DNA of 20,940 nucleotides, from positions 1-20,940 of IMG/VR virus record IMGVR_UViG_3300046665_000053; one strand, written 5' to 3'. The translations under genes were made by a program, and so were the position numbers. Below, in pieces: positions 15,306 to 20,605 of this stretch. The notes under the pieces were generated by a model that was not told the origin of the DNA, ran no database searches, and saw only the letters and a program-made list of their open reading frames with translations. The stretch is from a virus. Position 1 is the stretch's first letter; each line of letters opens with the position of its first letter.

Positions 15306-15314
15306 AGTATCACA
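15300..15314 (-). promoter_or_regulatory. 15-bp repeat at a stop/start junction (site S4)
   Basis: Minus-strand TGTGATACTGTGACA, exact. As at S3, it contains the upstream gene's TGA, then TACT, then the next gene's GTG. No convincing -35 lies upstream, so an operator role is as likely as a promoter. Confidence 0.5.
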
Positions 15315-15639
15315 CCTGGACGGGGAGAGTGGCGTCCGACCACACGGGGATCGGAGTGGCGTTGCGGTACCGGCTCTTGCGGTACTGGCCGGTGGTCCTG
15401 ATGAACCCCTCGCCCGCAGCCTTGCGGAGCACCGGGCCCATCGCTCGCGGCTCCTCGGGCTTGACCAGGCCCGCGTCCCACAGGTCATCGACAGTGAACT
15501 CACCGAGCGAGTCGGCGACAGCGATGATCGTGGCGTGGGCCTGCGCCTTCCACTCGTCGGACGCGCTCTCGTACACGCGCTGCATGGCCTCGTCCCGCGC
15601 AGCCTCGGCAGCCTGAAGGGTGGGGATGTGCACGTTCAC
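15310..15639 (-). CDS. Winged-helix-like DNA-binding protein (candidate)
   Basis: 109 residues from GTG 15639, with GAGGAG 7 nt upstream. After a helical N-terminus, residues about 45-90 (GEFTVDDLWDAGL, PRAMGPVLRKAAGEGFIRTT) follow a winged helix: helix, turn, recognition helix ending in a Gly-rich turn and an IRTT strand. The C-terminal YRKSRYRNATPIPVW is basic. Ribozyme A lies in its 5' untranslated region. Its TGA is in repeat S4. DNA binding is inferred from pattern. Confidence 0.6.
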   Translation of the reverse strand: MNVHIPTLQAAEAARDEAMQRVYESASDEWKAQAHATIIAVADSLGEFTVDDLWDAGLVKPEEPRAMGPVLRKAAGEGFIRTTGQYRKSRYRNATPIPVWSDATLPVQV

Positions 15640-15664
15640 TGTGTATCTCCTCTGCTCACGGTCT

Positions 15665-15723
15665 GGCTCATCAGGGCGTGGGCTACCACTCCACGCCGAC
15701 ACCCCTGGCCGGGGTGTTTCGCC
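15665..15723 (-). ncRNA. Type II hammerhead ribozyme A
   Basis: Minus strand 5' to 3': GGC, GAAA, stem III CACCCC/GGGGUG with loop GGCCA, cleavage triplet GUC, stem I GGCGUGG/CCACGCC with a 9-nt loop containing UGGU, CUGAUGA, GCC. GGC and GCC close stem II, which a U-A pair can extend. All invariant core bases are present. Predicted cleavage is between 15698 and 15697, 58 nt before the start of the 15310-15639 gene. TGTGCAAGTGTGGC directly precedes it. Confidence 0.9.
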
Positions 15724-15734
15724 ACACTTGCACA
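15721..15734 (-). repeat. Second short motif TGTGCAAGTGTGGC
   Basis: Minus-strand motif that ends in the GGC of ribozyme A stem II. Near copies are TGTGCAAGTGTGCC at 18431-18444, before ribozyme D, and TGTGCAAGTGGCGC at 19856-19869, before repeat S6. It resembles a degenerate form of the 15-bp repeat and may be a weak promoter. Confidence 0.45.
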
Positions 15735-15735
15735 G

Positions 15736-16164
15736 TCAGGACGTCTCGCGGTACCCGTCGAAGCAGTAGATGTACGAGGTGTCGCCGACCTTCGCCCAGC
15801 ACAGGCGGTGTCCCCACACGGTGCCCCAGTACTCACGGTGCGCGGCCTTGTTCTGCTTGACCCACGCCTGACGCTTGGCCGGGTCGTTCAGCTTCGGGTT
15901 CAGGTACGTCACGTTGCCCGCCCGGTCGACGTAGTACGAGTACCCCTTGCCGTTGCCCCGCTTGGCCGCGTCCCAGTAGCAGTTCGTGTCGTCGCTGTCG
16001 TCAGCGCACGGCTTGGTCGGGATGTGGAACACGGGCACGTACTTCACCTTGGCGGGCAGGGTCACGGGCTTGGCGTCCGAGGCGGAGGCCGGCGAGTTCC
16101 AGGTCAGGGAGCCCAGCAGGGCGAGGACCAGGAACGTCAGGACGTAGCGGGCTGCGGTCTTCAT
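15736..16164 (-). CDS. Secreted protein with N-terminal signal peptide
   Basis: 142 residues from ATG 16164, with AGGAG 7 nt upstream. The N-terminus is a standard signal peptide: MKTAARY, then hydrophobic VLTFLVLALLGSL, and an ASA cleavage site at residues 26-28. The mature part has four Cys (53, 62, 122, 134), likely two disulfides, and many Tyr/Trp. No lysin motif is visible. Export from the infected cell or lysogen is the clear prediction; exclusion of other phages or envelope change is speculation. The 5' end overlaps the upstream gene by 164 nt. Confidence 0.75.
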   Translation of the reverse strand: MKTAARYVLTFLVLALLGSLTWNSPASASDAKPVTLPAKVKYVPVFHIPTKPCADDSDDTNCYWDAAKRGNGKGYSYYVDRAGNVTYLNPKLNDPAKRQAWVKQNKAAHREYWGTVWGHRLCWAKVGDTSYIYCFDGYRETS

Positions 16165-16426
16165 CAGGTGTCTCCTCAAGGGTGAGCTCGCCCTCGATCG
16201 GGCGGGGCTTCGGGGTCATACGGAACTTGTAGGCGATCAGCTCGGGCACCTCGCCCGGCTCGACCGCTCGGTTGATCCACGCCGTGTGGCACACCATGGC
16301 CAGCAGGTGGATCGCCATCTTGATCATCTCGCTGTACGAGAGGCCGGTCCGGCGCAGGATCATCACGTCCTGCGCCAGGCTCCGATCCACCCGCGCACTC
16401 AACTGGCGGGGCATGTCCTCGCTCAC
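16001..16426 (-). CDS. Ribbon-helix-helix-like protein with an overlapping C-terminal extension
   Basis: 141 residues from GTG 16426 (GTGA overlap with the upstream gene; GGAGGTGG nearby). The N-terminus, RQLSARVDRSLAQDV followed by LRRTGLSYSEMIKMAIHLL, fits the strand-helix-helix of CopG/Arc-type DNA-binding domains. From about residue 89 the frame runs over the secreted-protein gene, and there its third positions lose the G/C bias, so that tail is probably carried along rather than selected. A regulator role is inferred. Confidence 0.6.
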   Translation of the reverse strand: MSEDMPRQLSARVDRSLAQDVMILRRTGLSYSEMIKMAIHLLAMVCHTAWINRAVEPGEVPELIAYKFRMTPKPRPIEGELTLEETPDEDRSPLRPDVPGPRPAGLPDLELAGLRLGRQARDPARQGEVRARVPHPDQAVR

Positions 16427-16635
16427 GTCAGGGCCACCTCCGGGAGGATGTCCCCCTCCTCGGTGATCAGGCGAGCGTCGATCAGTCTGCTGCCCGTGTC
16501 CCAGTAGTGGCGGCCGAGCTTCCAGCACATCCCGCTCTTGATCAGCAGGGCGAAGAGCTCCAGCGTCTCGGCGTCGTCCAGCTCGCCCGACTCGTAGCTG
16601 ATCAGGTCGATGACCAGGTCTCCCATGCGGCTCAC
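16423..16635 (-). CDS. Small phage protein of a widespread unknown family
   Basis: 70 residues from GTG 16635, coupled by GTGA overlaps on both sides. ISYESGELDDAETLELFALL, then IKSGMCWKLGRHYWDTGSRL and IDARLI, is a recurring pattern in small proteins of many tailed phages (acidic ESGELD..ETLELF, then a W..GHY-type segment). I recognise the pattern but know no function for it. Confidence 0.75.
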   Translation of the reverse strand: MSRMGDLVIDLISYESGELDDAETLELFALLIKSGMCWKLGRHYWDTGSRLIDARLITEEGDILPEVALT

Positions 16636-17018
16636 TTGCTTGCCTCCTCGATCTCATCCAGCAGGGTCTTGGCCAGGCGGAACCCGATGAAGAACAGGGC
16701 CAGGTCGGCATGCCCTTCAGGGGTGTCAGGGCTGGGTGTACCGAACTCGGTGAGGTTCTCCTTGTAGGCGCCGAGGTCTACGAACTGGCGCCACTTCACG
16801 CCGAGGTCGGCGCTCTTGCCAGCCTCAGCGGCTGCGTCCTGGATGGCCTCCCGGTAGGGGGCCACCTCCCCGTACTCCTGGACCAGGTCGACCACCTTGT
16901 CCCGTACGAGGGCGAGGAAGTCGGCACCCTCACTCACCCGCGAGTCAGGCTCGGCGCACTCGGCGAGGCGGGCCAGGGTCGGCGGGTCGTAGTGGTTGAT
17001 CCGTTCGGTGATGTCCAT
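16632..17018 (-). CDS. Unknown phage protein
   Basis: 128 residues from ATG 17018, with GAAGG 8-10 nt upstream. It is mostly helical (ADFLALVRDKVVDLVQEYG, FFIGFRLAKTLLDEIEEASK). Ribozyme B and repeat S5 lie directly upstream. Function unknown. Confidence 0.65.
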   Translation of the reverse strand: MDITERINHYDPPTLARLAECAEPDSRVSEGADFLALVRDKVVDLVQEYGEVAPYREAIQDAAAEAGKSADLGVKWRQFVDLGAYKENLTEFGTPSPDTPEGHADLALFFIGFRLAKTLLDEIEEASK

Positions 17019-17040
17019 CGGTCACACCTTCACAGTGGTT

Positions 17041-17095
17041 GGCTTCGTCAGGACGGGAGGTCCACTCCCGCCGACCGGGTCTCCCCGGTTTCGCC
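17041..17095 (-). ncRNA. Type II hammerhead ribozyme B (one inserted core base)
   Basis: Minus strand: GGC, GAAA, stem III CCGGG/CCCGG with GAGA loop, GUC, stem I GGCGGGAG/CUCCCGUC with loop UGGAC, CUGACGA, then an extra A before GCC. Stem I has one G-U pair. The inserted A between the core and stem II is unique among the nine copies and may slow cleavage. Predicted cleavage is between 17073 and 17072, 54 nt before the next start codon. Repeat S5 is 8 bp upstream. Confidence 0.8.
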
Positions 17096-17103
17096 TCTCT
17101 GTG

Positions 17104-17118
17104 TGTCACAGTATCACT
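17104..17118 (-). promoter_or_regulatory. 15-bp repeat before ribozyme B (site S5)
   Basis: Minus-strand AGTGATACTGTGACA, one mismatch at the first base. Upstream TTGTGTAACCTGCGC matches the region before S3 and S6. A start about 7 nt after GATACT would fall near 17103, just before the ribozyme, giving a promoter-ribozyme-gene unit. Confidence 0.55.
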
Positions 17119-17138
17119 GCTGCGCAGGTTACACAACC

Positions 17139-17549
17139 TCAGCCGTACCTGATCTCTCCGAGCGCAGCGAGCTGGATGATCACGTCGGCAGCGCTGGCGT
17201 CGATGTAGCTCAGGTCGATGCCGTCGTCCTCCCGTTCCAGCCAGGAGTCGGAGATGTACCCGTACAACTCCCGGTTCACGTACGGCTGGTCGATGTCGAG
17301 CAGCTTGCGGTACGCCTCACGGATGTCGTCGGCGCTCAGGTAGTGAACCTCGTCCACCTCGCGCCCACCGAAGGGGAAGTCATCGAACCCCTCCGCGATC
17401 GTCCACGTCTTGCCCTCGGGCAGGCCGGCGAACTCCTCGTCGGTCGGCTCCGTGGCCCAGTAGGTGATACCCCCGTACGCTCCCGTGTCGATGATGTCCT
17501 TGACGTTCTCGTCGGTGACGGACTTCTTGATCTCGTCGATGCTCGGCAC
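17139..17549 (-). CDS. Unknown acidic phage protein
   Basis: 136 residues from GTG 17549, with GAGGAG 7-8 nt upstream. It is strongly acidic, with an N-terminal GGITYWATEPTDEEF, a central HYLSADDIREAYRKLLDID and a C-terminal DASAADVIIQLAALG. The arrangement occurs in other tailed-phage early proteins of unknown role. No ribozyme precedes it: only 17 nt separate it from the upstream gene. Confidence 0.65.
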   Translation of the reverse strand: MPSIDEIKKSVTDENVKDIIDTGAYGGITYWATEPTDEEFAGLPEGKTWTIAEGFDDFPFGGREVDEVHYLSADDIREAYRKLLDIDQPYVNRELYGYISDSWLEREDDGIDLSYIDASAADVIIQLAALGEIRYG

Positions 17550-17566
17550 TGTCTGGCTCCTCAGTC

Positions 17567-17710
17567 TCAGGCGTTGGCGGCGATGCGGACGACGGCCTCG
17601 GTGCCCTCGTACTTGTTCTGGCGGACGTGCTTGCGGGCCAGCGTGGTCGCCTTGTCCTTGCGCTTCGAGTCGCGGACGTTCAGGTCGTGGGTGCGGAACT
17701 TGGGGGTCAC
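17567..17710 (-). CDS. Small basic protein
   Basis: 47 residues from GTG 17710, with AGGAG 7 nt upstream. It is very basic (RTHDLNVRDSKRKDKATTL, ARKHVRQNKYEG), so it may bind nucleic acid or an acidic protein. Ribozyme C lies 26 nt upstream. Third positions are G/C as in the neighbours. Confidence 0.7.
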   Translation of the reverse strand: MTPKFRTHDLNVRDSKRKDKATTLARKHVRQNKYEGTEAVVRIAANA

Positions 17711-17735
17711 TGTGGTGCTCCTTGCATGTGCGGCA

Positions 17736-17788
17736 GGCTCGTCAGCGGGGGGATGCCACCCTCCCCGGACCCCCGAAGGGGTTTCGCC
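17736..17788 (-). ncRNA. Type II hammerhead ribozyme C
   Basis: Minus strand: GGC, GAAA, stem III CCCC/GGGG with a UUCG tetraloop, GUC, stem I CGGGG/CCCCG extended past a bulged A, loop UGGCAU, CUGACGA, GCC. Position 7 of the core is C, allowed in the family. The loop GGCA is complementary to UGCC that follows stem II, unlike GGUU/AACC in copy F, a covarying tertiary pairing. Predicted cleavage is between 17768 and 17767, 57 nt before the 17710 start. It begins 3 nt after the upstream stop. Confidence 0.9.
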
Positions 17789-17791
17789 GGG

Positions 17792-18349
17792 TCAGTCCAG
17801 GTTCATCAGCGTGAGCAGCTCCTCTGTCGTCACGACCGGGAGCTCGGCCTCGGGCAGGGACTTGGACTTGGGACCCTCGACCAGCTCAGGTACGGGCTGG
17901 CCTGCCAGCTCCAGGACCCACGCCTCGTAGTCGTCGATGTCTGCGTGCAGATCGTCCGGGTCGTCGTCGCCGTAGGCGTGGCCCTCCAGGAAGGTCATCG
18001 CCGCGTGCTTGTGACCGCTCTCGGCCAGCGCGCGGGCCAGGTCTTCCGCCTCGGTGCAGGTGAAGTGGCCGCCCACCCCCTGTGCAGTCATCGTGTCGCC
18101 GAGGATGCGAGCGAAGACCGAGATCGCGGAGTGCATATCCTCGATCTCCTCCTCGGTGTCGCGCTCGTCCTCCACCACCTCCGCGAGGCAGAGGTAGCCG
18201 TAGCTCTCGGTCCAGTACTCGCCGACACCGGCGGACTGTCCGGGCTTCAGCCCTCCCCCGCAGGTCTCGCACTTGTACGGGCCAGGCTTCAGCGGGTAGA
18301 GGATCGGGCCGTTGTCGTCCAGGCACCGCACCACGTTGCTCGGGATCAT
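17792..18349 (-). CDS. Unknown protein with one CxxC pair
   Basis: 185 residues from ATG 18349, with GAAGG 10 nt upstream. CETCGGGL near residue 27 forms a single zinc-knuckle-like pair; the rest is acidic and helical (LAEVVEDERDTEEEIEDMHS, DDDPDDLHADIDDYEAW). Ribozyme D is upstream and ribozyme C follows its stop. Function unknown. Confidence 0.65.
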   Translation of the reverse strand: MIPSNVVRCLDDNGPILYPLKPGPYKCETCGGGLKPGQSAGVGEYWTESYGYLCLAEVVEDERDTEEEIEDMHSAISVFARILGDTMTAQGVGGHFTCTEAEDLARALAESGHKHAAMTFLEGHAYGDDDPDDLHADIDDYEAWVLELAGQPVPELVEGPKSKSLPEAELPVVTTEELLTLMNLD

Positions 18350-18374
18350 CTCTGTCACACCTTCACGCTTGGTT

Positions 18375-18428
18375 GCCTCATCAGGGACGGAGATCCACTC
18401 CGCCCGACCGCCTCTCGACGGTTTCGGC
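18375..18428 (-). ncRNA. Type II hammerhead ribozyme D
   Basis: Minus strand: GCC, GAAA, stem III CCGUC/GGCGG with GAGA loop, GUC, stem I GGGCGGAG/CUCCGUCC with loop UGGAU, CUGAUGA, GGC. Stem II here is GCC/GGC instead of GGC/GCC, a compensated change of its middle pair, which is strong evidence for the fold. Predicted cleavage is between 18406 and 18405, 56 nt before the 18349 start. The motif TGTGCAAGTGTGCC is 2 bp upstream. Confidence 0.92.
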
Positions 18429-18430
18429 TT

Positions 18431-18444
18431 GGCACACTTGCACA
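18431..18444 (-). repeat. Second short motif TGTGCAAGTGTGCC before ribozyme D
   Basis: Minus-strand copy of the motif also found before ribozyme A. It lies just after the stop TAA of the upstream gene and 2 bp before the ribozyme. Confidence 0.4.
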
Positions 18445-18445
18445 C

Positions 18446-19063
18446 TTACGCCGCAGTAGCGAACATGGTTCCCCTCGTAGACGTGCCGACCAGGCGGTCA
18501 CGCCACACCACCCAGGTCACCGCCTGCACGGTCGAGGGGAGCTCACCCAGGCGCTGTGCCGCCTCCCGGTAGCAGTGCGCGATCAGGGCGTACCGACCCT
18601 TGGCACCCAGACCCCGGTCACGGGCGCCGTACTCCTCCCCCACCGCGATGTCGTGGGCGTGCCGGTCGATGCAGACCGCGTCCGCGTCGGTCGGGTCGAA
18701 GATGCAGCGGTAGAAGTGGCCGGTCTTGCGGTCCATGGGCAGCACCTCGGCCGGGTCGGCACCCGCCAGGATCTTCGACGCCATGGCCAGCGCGTCTCCC
18801 AGGTGTCGGGACGGAGTCCCCGTCTCGTAAGCGTCCGTGGCCAGCTCGACGTTCAGCCACCATGCCGTCTGCGGAGACAGCGCTGCCAGGAGGCCGGCGC
18901 CGACCCGGACGTCACCCTCGGTCATCTGCTCGGCCAGGCGGTGCGCACTCGGGTACCAGTCGCGTCCCTGCAACTCCTGCTCGGCGGACGCATCCAGCCA
19001 GGTGTCGATGATGTTCCGCACGTACTGCTCACGGGTCTGGGCGTCGGGCTTGATGGAGATCAT
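18446..19063 (-). CDS. Conserved phage protein, possible HhH-GPD-like fold
   Basis: 205 residues from ATG 19063. An upstream ATG at 19165 with GGAGG 8 nt before it would add 34 residues, but that extension is the sequence of ribozyme E, so I prefer 19063 although its ribosome-binding site is weak (GAGAGAC). Segments such as LLAALSPQTAWWLNVELA, KTGHFYRCI and CIDRHAHDIAVG recur in a phage and actinobacterial family. Their order resembles HhH-GPD DNA glycosylases, where an Asp sits in a D-x-H strand-end motif, but no Gly-Val-Gly hairpin is evident. The fold is a guess. Confidence 0.65.
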   Translation of the reverse strand: MISIKPDAQTREQYVRNIIDTWLDASAEQELQGRDWYPSAHRLAEQMTEGDVRVGAGLLAALSPQTAWWLNVELATDAYETGTPSRHLGDALAMASKILAGADPAEVLPMDRKTGHFYRCIFDPTDADAVCIDRHAHDIAVGEEYGARDRGLGAKGRYALIAHCYREAAQRLGELPSTVQAVTWVVWRDRLVGTSTRGTMFATAA

Positions 19064-19091
19064 GGTCTCTCGTCTCTCGGGCGTGAGTGGC

Positions 19092-19164
19092 TGCTCATCA
19101 GGACCCAGGCACCGCCCTGGGCCTACACCCGGCCCACTGAGGGCAGTCGACCGGGTGTTTCGCA
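19092..19164 (-). ncRNA. Type II hammerhead ribozyme E (long stem III, GUA site)
   Basis: Minus strand: UGC, GAAA, stem III CACCCGG/CCGGGUG with an 18-nt loop that can form a further ACUG/CAGU stem, cleavage triplet GUA, stem I GGCCCAGG/CCUGGGUC with loop GCGGUG, CUGAUGA, GCA. Stem II is UGC/GCA, a second compensated change. GUA is an accepted NUH site. Predicted cleavage is between 19124 and 19123, 60 nt before the 19063 start. Confidence 0.9.
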
Positions 19165-19178
19165 TGGAGTCACACCTC

Positions 19179-19194
19179 CCGGCCTCCCGGCCGG
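19179..19194 (-). other. Perfect 6-bp hairpin with a GNRA-type loop
   Basis: Minus-strand CCGGCC-GGGA-GGCCGG lies between the 29-residue gene and ribozyme E. It has no U-run. It may protect the 3' end of the 29-residue gene's message or be a partial terminator. The remainder of 19165-19233 shows nothing else I can support. Confidence 0.4.
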
Positions 19195-19233
19195 GGATCT
19201 ACGTGTGAGGTGTTGCAGTGCACTCTTGCGGGC

Positions 19234-19323
19234 TCACCTCCTGAAGAAGGCGACCTCCCAGTTACTCCCGTCGCGATGTCCGCGCTGGTCCCGCAAGATT
19301 TTCTTGTGCATGGTGATCTGCAT
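19234..19323 (-). CDS. 29-residue basic peptide
   Basis: ATG 19323 follows GAAAGG with 6 nt spacing. The peptide, MQITMHKKILRDQRGHRDGS then NWEVAFFRR, is basic with an aromatic end. It has its own ribozyme (F) upstream at the usual distance, which supports it as a real gene more than its length does. Function unknown. Confidence 0.55.
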   Translation of the reverse strand: MQITMHKKILRDQRGHRDGSNWEVAFFRR

Positions 19324-19360
19324 GTAGGGCCTTTCAGCCTCGTCCGAAGTACCTTGGGTT

Positions 19361-19414
19361 GGCTCATCAGTGACCAGGAACCACCTGGTCAGACACCCTC
19401 TCGGGTGTTTCGCC
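19361..19414 (-). ncRNA. Type II hammerhead ribozyme F
   Basis: Minus strand: GGC, GAAA, stem III CACCC/GGGUG with GAGA loop, GUC, stem I UGACCAGG/CCUGGUCA (8 perfect pairs) with loop UGGUU, CUGAUGA, GCC, then AACC. This is the cleanest copy. Loop GGUU can pair with the AACC after stem II. Predicted cleavage is between 19392 and 19391, 68 nt before the 19323 start. It begins 3 nt after the upstream stop. Confidence 0.95.
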
Positions 19415-19417
19415 TTG

Positions 19418-19549
19418 TCACTCGTAGTGCGATGCCGCGATCTTGTCGGCCAGCTCCAGGACCCTTCTCCGATCCGTGTGCTCCAGGTCGGCCAGGAGCT
19501 CAGCCAGCTCCTCGACGCTGTACTCGGGAGTGATGCTGTATCCGTCCAC
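19418..19549 (-). CDS. 43-residue acidic helical protein
   Basis: GTG 19549 follows GAGGAG with 6 nt spacing. The product (VEELAELLADLEHTDRRRVL, ELADKIAASHYE) is a strong amphipathic helix pair with an acidic first half. Flanked by ribozymes G and F. A small regulator or partner protein is possible; no family recognised. Confidence 0.65.
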   Translation of the reverse strand: MDGYSITPEYSVEELAELLADLEHTDRRRVLELADKIAASHYE

Positions 19550-19568
19550 GCTGCGCTCCTCGTTGGTT

Positions 19569-19622
19569 GGCTCATCAGTGACCGGGCACCACCCGGCCAA
19601 ACACCCTCACGGGTGTTTCGCC
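19569..19622 (-). ncRNA. Type II hammerhead ribozyme G (GUU site)
   Basis: Minus strand: GGC, GAAA, stem III CACCC/GGGUG with GUGA loop, cleavage triplet GUU, stem I UGGCCGGG/CCCGGUCA with loop UGGUG, CUGAUGA, GCC, AACC. GUU is an accepted NUH site. Predicted cleavage is between 19600 and 19599, 50 nt before the 19549 start. It begins 1 nt after the upstream stop. Confidence 0.93.
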
Positions 19623-19623
19623 T

Positions 19624-19818
19624 TCACCGCGCCCCTACCTCCCGACTCCGGTAGCGGGCCCAGTCGTGCTGCTCGCCCTCCAGGAGCCAGGGCAGCGGGT
19701 CTCGGCCCAGATCCTCACGGGGGCTGAACACCACCCGCGTCCCTTCTGCGGGCCGCACCTTGCACTCGATGACCGCTCCCCCGGCTGCCGCCCGAAGCAG
19801 TTCCTGGATCTTGCTCAC
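19624..19818 (-). CDS. Small unknown protein
   Basis: 64 residues from GTG 19818, with GGGGAG 5-6 nt upstream. The N-terminus is helical (SKIQELLRAAAGGAVIE), then a beta-like middle (CKVRPAEGTRVVFSP) and a WLLEGEQHDWARYRS end. Unlike most neighbours it has a promoter-like repeat (S6) rather than a ribozyme upstream. Function unknown. Confidence 0.65.
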   Translation of the reverse strand: MSKIQELLRAAAGGAVIECKVRPAEGTRVVFSPREDLGRDPLPWLLEGEQHDWARYRSREVGAR

Positions 19819-19837
19819 TCACTCTCCCCTTCGATGT

Positions 19838-19870
19838 TGTGACAGTATCACACTTGCGCCACTTGCACAA
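19838..19870 (-). promoter_or_regulatory. Promoter-like region with repeat S6 and the second motif
   Basis: Minus-strand TGTGATACTGTCACA (19838-19852) is nearly a perfect dyad. It is preceded by TGTGCAAGTGGCGC (19856-19869), starting right after the stop of the GNAT-like gene. TTGTGC lies 15 bp before GATACT. A start near 19840 gives a leader of about 20 nt for the 64-residue gene. Confidence 0.6.
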
Positions 19871-20248
19871 TCAGAGCGACATGAAGACCACGTCAGGCTC
19901 GCCCGCCGTCCAGTTCGCGACCCGCTCAGTCTCGACGAACCCGAACCGCTTGTAGTACTCGGGCAGGAACCCGTCGAAGCAGTCCAGACGCTTCGCTCCC
20001 TTGTGCGTCACGGCGTCCCACATCAGATCCTCACCGCGACCCTTGACCGTGGAGAACAGACCGATCAGCGTGCCGTCGCTGGCCACACCGAACCCGGACT
20101 GGAAGTCGTTGGTCAGGTAGTACCTTGCGCCTCTCGGGAGCTCCGAGGGCTTGCTCGTAGCCTCAGTGATCCGCTTGCTACCGCTCCTCGCCCAGTCAAG
20201 GGCGGCGGTGTACTCGGACCATGAAGCAGGGTGCACGAATGTCGTCAC
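19871..20248 (-). CDS. GNAT-like acetyltransferase
   Basis: 125 residues from GTG 20248, with GGAG 5 nt upstream. The C-terminal half has the GNAT ending: a strand with RLDCFDGFLPEYYKRFGF, matching the helix-plus-GF pattern around the acetyl-CoA site, and a preceding strand GTLIGLFSTVKGRGEDLM where the CoA loop is expected (V-K-G-R-G). The usual Q/RxxGxG loop is reduced, so it may be a divergent or inactive member. The substrate is unknown; GNAT proteins of phages can modify host proteins. Confidence 0.65.
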   Translation of the reverse strand: MTTFVHPASWSEYTAALDWARSGSKRITEATSKPSELPRGARYYLTNDFQSGFGVASDGTLIGLFSTVKGRGEDLMWDAVTHKGAKRLDCFDGFLPEYYKRFGFVETERVANWTAGEPDVVFMSL

Positions 20249-20274
20249 AGCGACTCCTTGGGATTGAGCAGGCT

Positions 20275-20328
20275 GGCTCATCAGCGGTCGGCTACCCAAG
20301 CCGGCCGGACCCCCGAAGGGGTTTCGCC
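20275..20328 (-). ncRNA. Type II hammerhead ribozyme H
   Basis: Minus strand: GGC, GAAA, stem III CCCC/GGGG with UUCG loop, GUC, stem I CGGCCGGC/GCCGACCG (one C-A mismatch) with loop UUGGGUA, CUGAUGA, GCC, AGCC. Predicted cleavage is between 20308 and 20307, 59 nt before the 20248 start. It begins 1 nt after the stop of the 58-residue gene. Confidence 0.9.
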
Positions 20329-20329
20329 T

Positions 20330-20506
20330 TCAGCGACCCAGAATCTGGGCCTTGTGCGCCTCGAACTCCTTGACCTCTGCCAGGTAGGCGCGCTCCCCGA
20401 ACTCCAGCGACAGGGCGAGGAGGTTGTTGCGGCGGAGGTTCGCGTTGATCGCGGACTTCATCCGGCCGTACGAAATCGTCTGGGGGGTCTTGGCGAGCGA
20501 CACCAT
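20330..20506 (-). CDS. 58-residue basic protein
   Basis: ATG 20506 follows GGAG with 7 nt spacing. The product has a Ser/Thr/basic N-terminus (SLAKTPQTISYGRMKSAI), NANLRRNNLL, and a charged helix (EFGERAYLAEVKEFEAHK). It lies between ribozymes I and H. No family recognised. Confidence 0.65.
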   Translation of the reverse strand: MVSLAKTPQTISYGRMKSAINANLRRNNLLALSLEFGERAYLAEVKEFEAHKAQILGR

Positions 20507-20533
20507 CACACTTCTCCATTCGTCGAGCAGGCT

Positions 20534-20589
20534 GGCTCATCAGCGACCAGGAACCACCTGGCCGGACCGCCCTTGCGGGCGGTTTCGCC
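20534..20589 (-). ncRNA. Type II hammerhead ribozyme I
   Basis: Minus strand: GGC, GAAA, stem III CCGCCC/GGGCGG with GCAA loop, GUC, stem I CGGCCAGG/CCUGGUCG with loop UGGUU, CUGAUGA, GCC, AGCC. Predicted cleavage is between 20565 and 20564, 58 nt before the 20506 start. Repeat S7 lies 1 bp upstream, so a transcript from it would begin at the ribozyme. Confidence 0.95.
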
Positions 20590-20590
20590 T

Positions 20591-20605
20591 TGCGACACTA
20601 TCACA
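20591..20605 (-). promoter_or_regulatory. 15-bp repeat directly before ribozyme I (site S7)
   Basis: Minus-strand TGTGATAGTGTCGCA, one change from S1. It contains the TGA of the upstream gene. GATAGT would place the transcript start at about 20590, the first base of the ribozyme. No good -35 is seen. Confidence 0.5.

Follow-up and report, generated by a model that had tools for sequence, protein, structure and literature searches.

Predicted type II hammerhead ribozymes and a tRNA-like element at the same gene borders of an operon in R4-like Streptomyces phages

The stretch of DNA analysed here, referred to as the window, is IMG/VR record IMGVR_UViG_3300046665_000053 at its complete length of 20,940 bases. 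It represents part of the genome of an R4-like Streptomyces phage, and its closest relatives are the Streptomyces phages Spernnie (84% identity over 72%), Caelum, Animus and R4 of the subfamily Arquatrovirinae. The window carries an operon that runs from right to left; the ten operon proteins that were scanned match PHROG families of unknown function. A sequence-only reading had placed nine type II hammerhead ribozymes between genes of this operon and had named the Rfam type II model as the means to check them on the minus strand. When the entire window was searched by cmscan with all 4227 Rfam models, nine matches to this model (RF02276) were obtained at the places proposed, all of them on the minus strand, intergenic and within the one operon (Table 1), which bears out the proposal. 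No other Rfam family was detected in the window by this search. The scores range from 53.8 to 34.4 bits (E 9e-9 to 1.1e-3), six of the nine copies pass the gathering score of 37, and all nine span model positions 1-66. A full catalytic core was parsed in every copy, comprising GAA, the A15.1-U16.1 pair, H at the cleavage site and CUGANGA; stems I and III are closed by loops, stem II is open, and a cleavage site was predicted for each. Stem II is GGC/GCC in six copies and TGGC/GCCA in copy A, with D and E differing as given in Table 1. The additional A of copy B lies between CUGACGA and GCC, and in relatives the parser found an additional base of this kind in 60 of 159 copies. In 14 control genomes, no match to RF02276 was observed. 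A chance motif as the source of the nine copies is ruled out by the Rfam matches, the controls and the parsed cores, and simple terminator hairpins are ruled out by the retention of the hammerhead core and of the pseudoknot described below.

Table 1. Predicted ribozymes and promoter-like boxes of the window, with one example of the tRNA-like element from a relative
Feature	Position	Strand	RF02276 match	Prediction or spacing	Neighbouring gene	Evidence and remarks
Hammerhead A	15664-15724	minus	15657-15724	cleavage 3' of 15698	upstream of gene 15310-15639	53.8 bits, parsed core
Hammerhead B	17041-17095	minus	17037-17096	cleavage 3' of 17073	upstream of gene 16632-17018	35.6 bits, parsed core; extra A before stem II 3' strand
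Hammerhead C	17736-17788	minus	17728-17789	cleavage 3' of 17768	upstream of 47-amino-acid gene, about 17566-17709	34.4 bits, parsed core
Hammerhead D	18375-18428	minus	18367-18429	cleavage 3' of 18406	upstream of gene 17792-18349	43.7 bits, parsed core; inverted stem II GCC/GGC
Hammerhead E	19092-19164	minus	19085-19165	cleavage 3' of 19124	upstream of gene 18446-19063	50.0 bits, parsed core; long stem III, TGC/GCA stem II
Hammerhead F	19361-19414	minus	19353-19415	cleavage 3' of 19392	upstream of gene 19234-19323, about 29 amino acids	49.2 bits, parsed core
Hammerhead G	19569-19622	minus	19561-19623	cleavage 3' of 19600	upstream of gene 19418-19549	44.2 bits, parsed core
Hammerhead H	20275-20328	minus	20267-20329	cleavage 3' of 20308	upstream of gene 19871-20248	36.1 bits, parsed core
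Hammerhead I	20534-20589	minus	20526-20590	cleavage 3' of 20565	upstream of gene 20330-20506	48.6 bits, parsed core
Promoter-like TTGTGT-N17-TACTGT	17108-17136	minus		ribozyme B starts 12 nt past -10 box		
Promoter-like -10 TGATAGTGT	20595-20603	minus		ribozyme I starts 5 nt past it		
Promoter-like TTGTGC-N17-TACTGT	19842-19870	minus			before gene 19624-19818	array gene start without ribozyme
tRNA-like element (example)	Verabelle stretch L166, 3958-4000	minus				covariance model

Arrays of RF02276 matches were found in 16 named relatives, including R4, with 8-13 copies each, every copy on the minus strand and in the same operon. The number of copies is 8 in Nishikigoi and Hank144, 9 in Spernnie, R4, Daudau and Omar, 10 in Caelum, Puginator, Sentinel and phiScoe1, 11 in Animus, TrvxScott, Alvy and Paedore, 12 in Salutena and 13 in Marav. 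These counts are lower bounds, because orthologues in Spernnie, Hank144 and Paedore that appear free of hammerheads were read as probably carrying divergent copies below the search cut-off. The presence of the array in 16 named phages rules out an oddity of the window or an artefact of its assembly into a contig. Judged from the relatives, at most one or two further copies would be expected upstream, beyond the end of the fragment. Among the matches listed for IMG/VR contigs, additional dense arrays were observed, for example nine copies in 6.1 kb and 11 copies in 18 kb.

The parser found the core intact in 159 of the 161 copies of the relatives (168 of 170 with the window included). The two failures are a phiScoe1 copy with a CUGA to CCGA change in the core and a Sentinel copy that missed a stem rule only. 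The cleavage triplet of the relatives is GUC in 143 copies, GUU in 13 and GUA in three. In stem II, both partners of a pair change together (GGC/GCC, GCC/GGC, TGC/GCA, GUC/GAC), and the variation of stem I across copies is compensatory. A pseudoknot between loop I and the 3' tail of type II hammerheads has been described by Perreault et al. 2011 (PMC3088659). In the phage copies, true pairs of loop I and tail reached 9.91, compared with 8.65 (standard deviation 0.17) for tails re-dealt among the copies, a difference of 7.5 standard deviations; at least four Watson-Crick pairs were observed in 47 of 104 copies, compared with 24 expected. In each copy of the window, loop and tail share three to six pairs. 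With intact cores, compensated stems and a supported pseudoknot, the hammerhead copies look functional.

The array points to systematic annotation errors, in which gene callers start proteins inside ribozymes. In the core, CUG-AUG-AGC-CAG-CC mimics a start codon, and callers of open reading frames thus yield proteins beginning with MSQP inside hammerheads, in the window at 20292-20540, 19234-19575 and 19170-19367 and also in phage records; AUGCGAAAC of copy E is likewise taken as a start codon. In R4 (NC_019414.1), gp60.1, gp67.1 and gp75.1 (41762-41845, 44125-44217 and 47073-47174) overlie ribozymes and are probably not genes, and the annotated starts of gp72, gp76, gp77, gp79 and gp81 extend into ribozymes. 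No hammerhead annotation was present in the three records of hammerhead phages whose feature tables were checked. A separate observation concerns two hammerheads that directly follow one another close to the operon start, in Spernnie (45572-45700), phiScoe1 (49366-49497), Sentinel (46286-46418), Alvy (51395-51528), TrvxScott (50968-51102) and Marav (49555-49689). Such a pair would free an RNA of roughly 65 nt with a 5'-OH and a cyclic-phosphate end.

The position of the ribozymes relative to the genes is closely kept. The distance from the end of the core to the start codon has a median of 25 nt (interquartile range 23-27, n=166, with start codons outside annotated genomes called by a simple rule). 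Ribozymes occupy eight of the ten gaps of at least 60 nt in Spernnie and 11 of 13 in Salutena. Families of downstream genes keep their ribozyme, and three of them have one in 17 of 17 phages, namely the 47-amino-acid gene behind copy C, the gene of about 29 amino acids behind copy F and the gene behind copy H, whose orthologues are annotated as acetyltransferase. Accessory genes found in few phages also bring a ribozyme. Since downstream families, accessory genes included, retain it, the ribozyme is best described as part of the leader of the gene behind it. A promoter-like TTGTGY-N17-TACTGT box lies shortly before some copies in 14 of the 16 hammerhead phages and in the window, these copies starting 5-35 nt after the -10 box. 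At B and I of the window, which lie close to +1 of promoter-like sites, a cut would trim the leader and replace the 5' triphosphate by a 5'-OH, not split genes. A TGTGATACTGTCACA-like box is in addition repeated in the window, on the minus strand at 20603, 19850, 17116, 15312 and 14427 and on the plus strand at 1712 and 4647; its -10-like TACTGT lies within an inverted repeat, TGTGA-N5-TCACA, and the box may combine a promoter with a repressor site.

We propose that the hammerheads sit in the 5' leaders of individual genes in the long leftward operon, where each would cleave the polycistronic RNA in cis shortly before the Shine-Dalgarno region. This would leave the stem III hairpin and a 2',3'-cyclic phosphate at the end of the upstream message; the downstream message would carry a 5'-OH at its start, followed by the stem I hairpin and, after the core, a leader of about 25 nt. 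The outcome would be mRNAs of one to four genes with defined, structured ends. Between the predicted cuts of the window, the fragments carry 1, 2, 1, 1, 1, 1, 2 and 4 genes. The sequence-only reading had assumed that the operon mRNA is cut between genes into single-gene messages. Self-processing of the mRNA remains likely, but the fragments are not all of single genes. Likewise, the copies are intergenic, as had been noted, but the ribozymes behave as 5'-leader elements, and B and I adjoin promoter-like boxes. The further suggestion of hairpins at both fragment ends, stem III upstream and stem I downstream, agrees with our own reading as the likely one.

It is possible, although we doubt it, that the ribozymes mainly trim leaders and thereby set the 5' end of each mRNA, with the cutting between genes as a side effect. 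The 5'-OH and the hairpin would then resist RNases that depend on a 5' phosphate and would leave a clean ribosome-binding region. The tight spacing to the start codon and the association with the downstream gene fit this idea, and for the copies that follow a -10 box within 5-35 nt, the transcript started there contains no preceding gene that a cut could set apart. On the other hand, most copies lie between close genes where no promoter box was found, so that read-through RNA would be cut, and the intact stem III hairpins would also serve the upstream 3' end. Trimming of leaders and cutting of the operon mRNA overlap as explanations.

In four further relatives, phiHau3, Celeste (Likavirus), Verabelle (Camvirus) and Kamino, a search with RF02276 gave no hammerheads. 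Upstream of orthologous genes in these phages, a different recurrent element of 43 nt was found. Its parts are an acceptor stem of 5 bp, a linker of 11 nt (consensus ACCGGCAGACA) and a T stem of 6 bp whose loop reads TTCGAGN; the acceptor stem is followed by ACU. With 25 copies as its basis, a covariance model located 6, 7, 10 and 9 copies in phiHau3, Celeste, Verabelle and Kamino, respectively, all on the minus strand, and gave 309 matches in 57 IMG/VR viral contig stretches; the E-values of this home-made model are rough. Twelve pairs are formed in 100% of the 25 sequences and again of 61 distinct sequences, and the covariation is 0.54 and 0.50 for the two sets, compared with 0.12 and 0.11 after shuffling. 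Among the twelve, linker position 14 pairs with the last base of the T loop (14-29) as AU, GC, CG, UA and GU/UG, and this pair is absent from the model. An alternative fold, in which CC of the linker pairs with the 3' strand of the T stem, was rejected; the linker variants AGC and AGA cannot form it, and only 14-29 covaries. The first pair G1-C40 is invariant, A occupies position -1 in 30 of 32 copies, and the A-C after the acceptor stem is nearly invariant. As for traits of RNase P substrates, G-C and A-C are present, whereas the third base is U and not C.

No Rfam family matched the tRNA-like element above threshold, and two of the sub-threshold matches were to mascRNA; the nearest related family is mascRNA/menRNA (RF01684), with 26 bits compared with a cut-off of 42.5. 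ARAGORN detected no tRNA in it. A real tRNA or a known Rfam family is thus not supported. Attachment sites of an integrase are unlikely for many copies that differ by compensated changes. We regard the element as a candidate new RNA family. A whole-genome scan of bacteria for the pattern yielded only seven stretches. Model matches in bacterial contigs comprise four in Streptomyces pyxinicus (L256) and six in Actinocatenispora rupis (L257), possibly in prophages. A tighter run was observed in IMG/VR 3300038552_000146 (L188, 1600-2985, minus strand), with copies about 105-135 nt apart that are separated by degenerate GGCATGGCAAGGC-type repeats and not by genes.

In the phages that carry it, the tRNA-like element would do the same job as the hammerheads, being cut by host RNase P and probably also by RNase Z. 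Excision by both enzymes would by itself leave no end hairpins, and hairpins encoded outside the element would protect the ends. The flanks of the tRNA-like copies (32 nt before, 26 nt after) fold better than shuffles (Z -5.9 and -9.4), whereas the same flanks of the hammerheads appear unstructured (Z -0.2 and +2.3), shuffling being by letter and not by dinucleotide. Because of this difference, the tRNA-like clade seems to encode its end hairpins separately, as would be expected if the hammerheads carry their own. It is, on the other hand, rather unlikely that the tRNA-like elements are folded roadblocks to exonucleases or ribosome- or RNA-binding elements and not sites of RNase P and RNase Z, which would make the exchange positional and not functional. 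The tertiary pair 14-29 and the conserved GG of the linker could form a compact knot, and the helix of 11 bp without CCA is in line with such a role. However, the invariant G1-C40, the A at -1, the near-invariant A-C, the T loop of the form TTCGANN and the structured flanks on both sides speak against it, as does mascRNA as the nearest, although sub-threshold, Rfam model.

The two elements exclude each other. The tRNA-like element was found in none of 24 hammerhead records, and hammerheads in none of 26 tRNA-like records (the four named phages and 22 from IMG/VR), although a few IMG/VR records may duplicate named phages. The IMG/VR records of both kinds were picked by pattern, and the exclusion test therefore covers phages rich in one element. 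In ten gene families (f0, f2, f4, f5, f6, f8, f10, f13, f18 and f23), a hammerhead precedes the gene in one clade, and at least one phage of the other clade has the tRNA-like element there. When operon orthologues were compared, 11 had a hammerhead in one phage and the tRNA-like element in the other, 3 and 3 were discordant and 35 had neither (Fisher p=1.8e-6, which is too optimistic because the counts repeat families across the four phages). When ribonucleotide reductase, ThyX and exonuclease were used for a tree, the phages with the tRNA-like element grouped into a single clade with a support of 1.0 and the hammerhead phages fell outside it, so the switch of elements is one historical contrast repeated over many borders. 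For both elements, the data show what their sequence and structure are, how they are conserved, where they lie and that each excludes the other.

We read these data as two unrelated RNA-cleavage devices that were apparently swapped at the same gene borders, and the swap in the sister clade suggests that cutting of messages between genes is the purpose of these sequences. That the elements are instead recombinational joints, in which cassettes of ribozyme and gene spread among phages and self-cleavage matters little for expression, is improbable: a ribozyme is gained and lost together with its gene across phages and the element sequences are similar enough to offer recombination homology, but cores and pseudoknot are preserved despite divergence, and shuffling by homology leaves unexplained a structurally unrelated element at the same borders.

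Several points weigh against cutting by both devices. Copies H, B and C miss the Rfam cut-off by 0.9-2.6 bits. The helix of the tRNA-like element has 11 bp, not 12, and lacks the full CCA, for which reason recognition by RNase P is only plausible. The exclusion amounts to one evolutionary contrast that follows from the clade split, not to 50 independent ones. Cutting is not required at every border, since neither element precedes some of the genes and several fragments are polycistronic. With these points included, it is still probable in our view that all nine elements are true hammerhead ribozymes of type II, a judgement that takes in their placement in leaders, their cutting in cis and the RNase P and RNase Z reading of the sister clade. 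To the same degree we favour the explanation as a whole, in which both elements would cut the operon transcript at gene starts and yield protected ends, one in cis and the other through host enzymes. Cleavage in the cell, recognition by RNase P and RNase Z, protection of the ends and an effect on expression are what we infer from the observations. We regard as about equally likely to be right or wrong the claim in its fullest form, that two sister clades punctuate one operon at the same borders with unrelated devices, the one with hammerheads and the other with an undescribed family of tRNA mimics cut by host RNase P and RNase Z.

If this holds true, nature would have exchanged cis-acting and host-dependent processing of mRNA for one another, and the function of hammerheads in phages would be identified. 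Cultivable phages, including the classic R4, carry dense and conserved arrays, and the sister clade is a natural control with a different element; the idea of mRNA processing is therefore directly testable. Searches of the open-access literature gave no paper that treats the hammerhead arrays of R4-like phages or the tRNA-like element.

In mitochondria, tRNAs between genes are cut by RNase P and RNase Z, which frees the mRNAs, an arrangement known as tRNA punctuation. The sister clade resembles it in having tRNA-shaped intergenic elements, but mitochondria use real tRNAs, whereas the phage element is a mini tRNA mimic. RNase P and RNase Z likewise excise mascRNA. The MALAT1 mascRNA/menRNA, the nearest Rfam match, belongs to the 3' end of a eukaryotic long non-coding RNA, whereas the phage element is smaller and occurs in intergenic arrays. 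An acceptor stem joined to a T arm is a known model substrate of RNase P (PMC11143913), and the tRNA-like element resembles such substrates. The theta ribozymes of gut phages, which cut at tRNA 3' ends (PMC10879173), are like the hammerheads described here small self-cleaving phage ribozymes for RNA processing; unlike them, they have a fold like that of hepatitis delta virus and do not lie between protein genes. For hammerheads of prokaryotes, a 2017 review (PMC6155905) treats the role as an open question and points to a persistent association with phages. The closest known system is found in Perreault et al. 2011 (PMC3088659), who described clustered type II hammerheads in prophages and proposed the cutting of long transcripts; tandem arrangements were cleaved in vitro, and cleavage of a triple from Agrobacterium was observed in E. 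coli. Those clusters share with the window array the type II fold, the pseudoknot of loop I and tail, and several copies flanking phage genes, and the nine same-strand copies of the window, all between genes in one apparent transcription unit, form a cluster of this type. Differing from them, the arrays described here comprise 8-13 copies in one operon, are conserved at orthologous borders across a phage subfamily, keep a fixed spacing to the start codon, include copies next to promoter-like boxes and are matched in a sister clade by a different element at the same borders. The idea of phage mRNA processed by ribozymes, as put forward for the prophage clusters, fits the window array and would apply to it.

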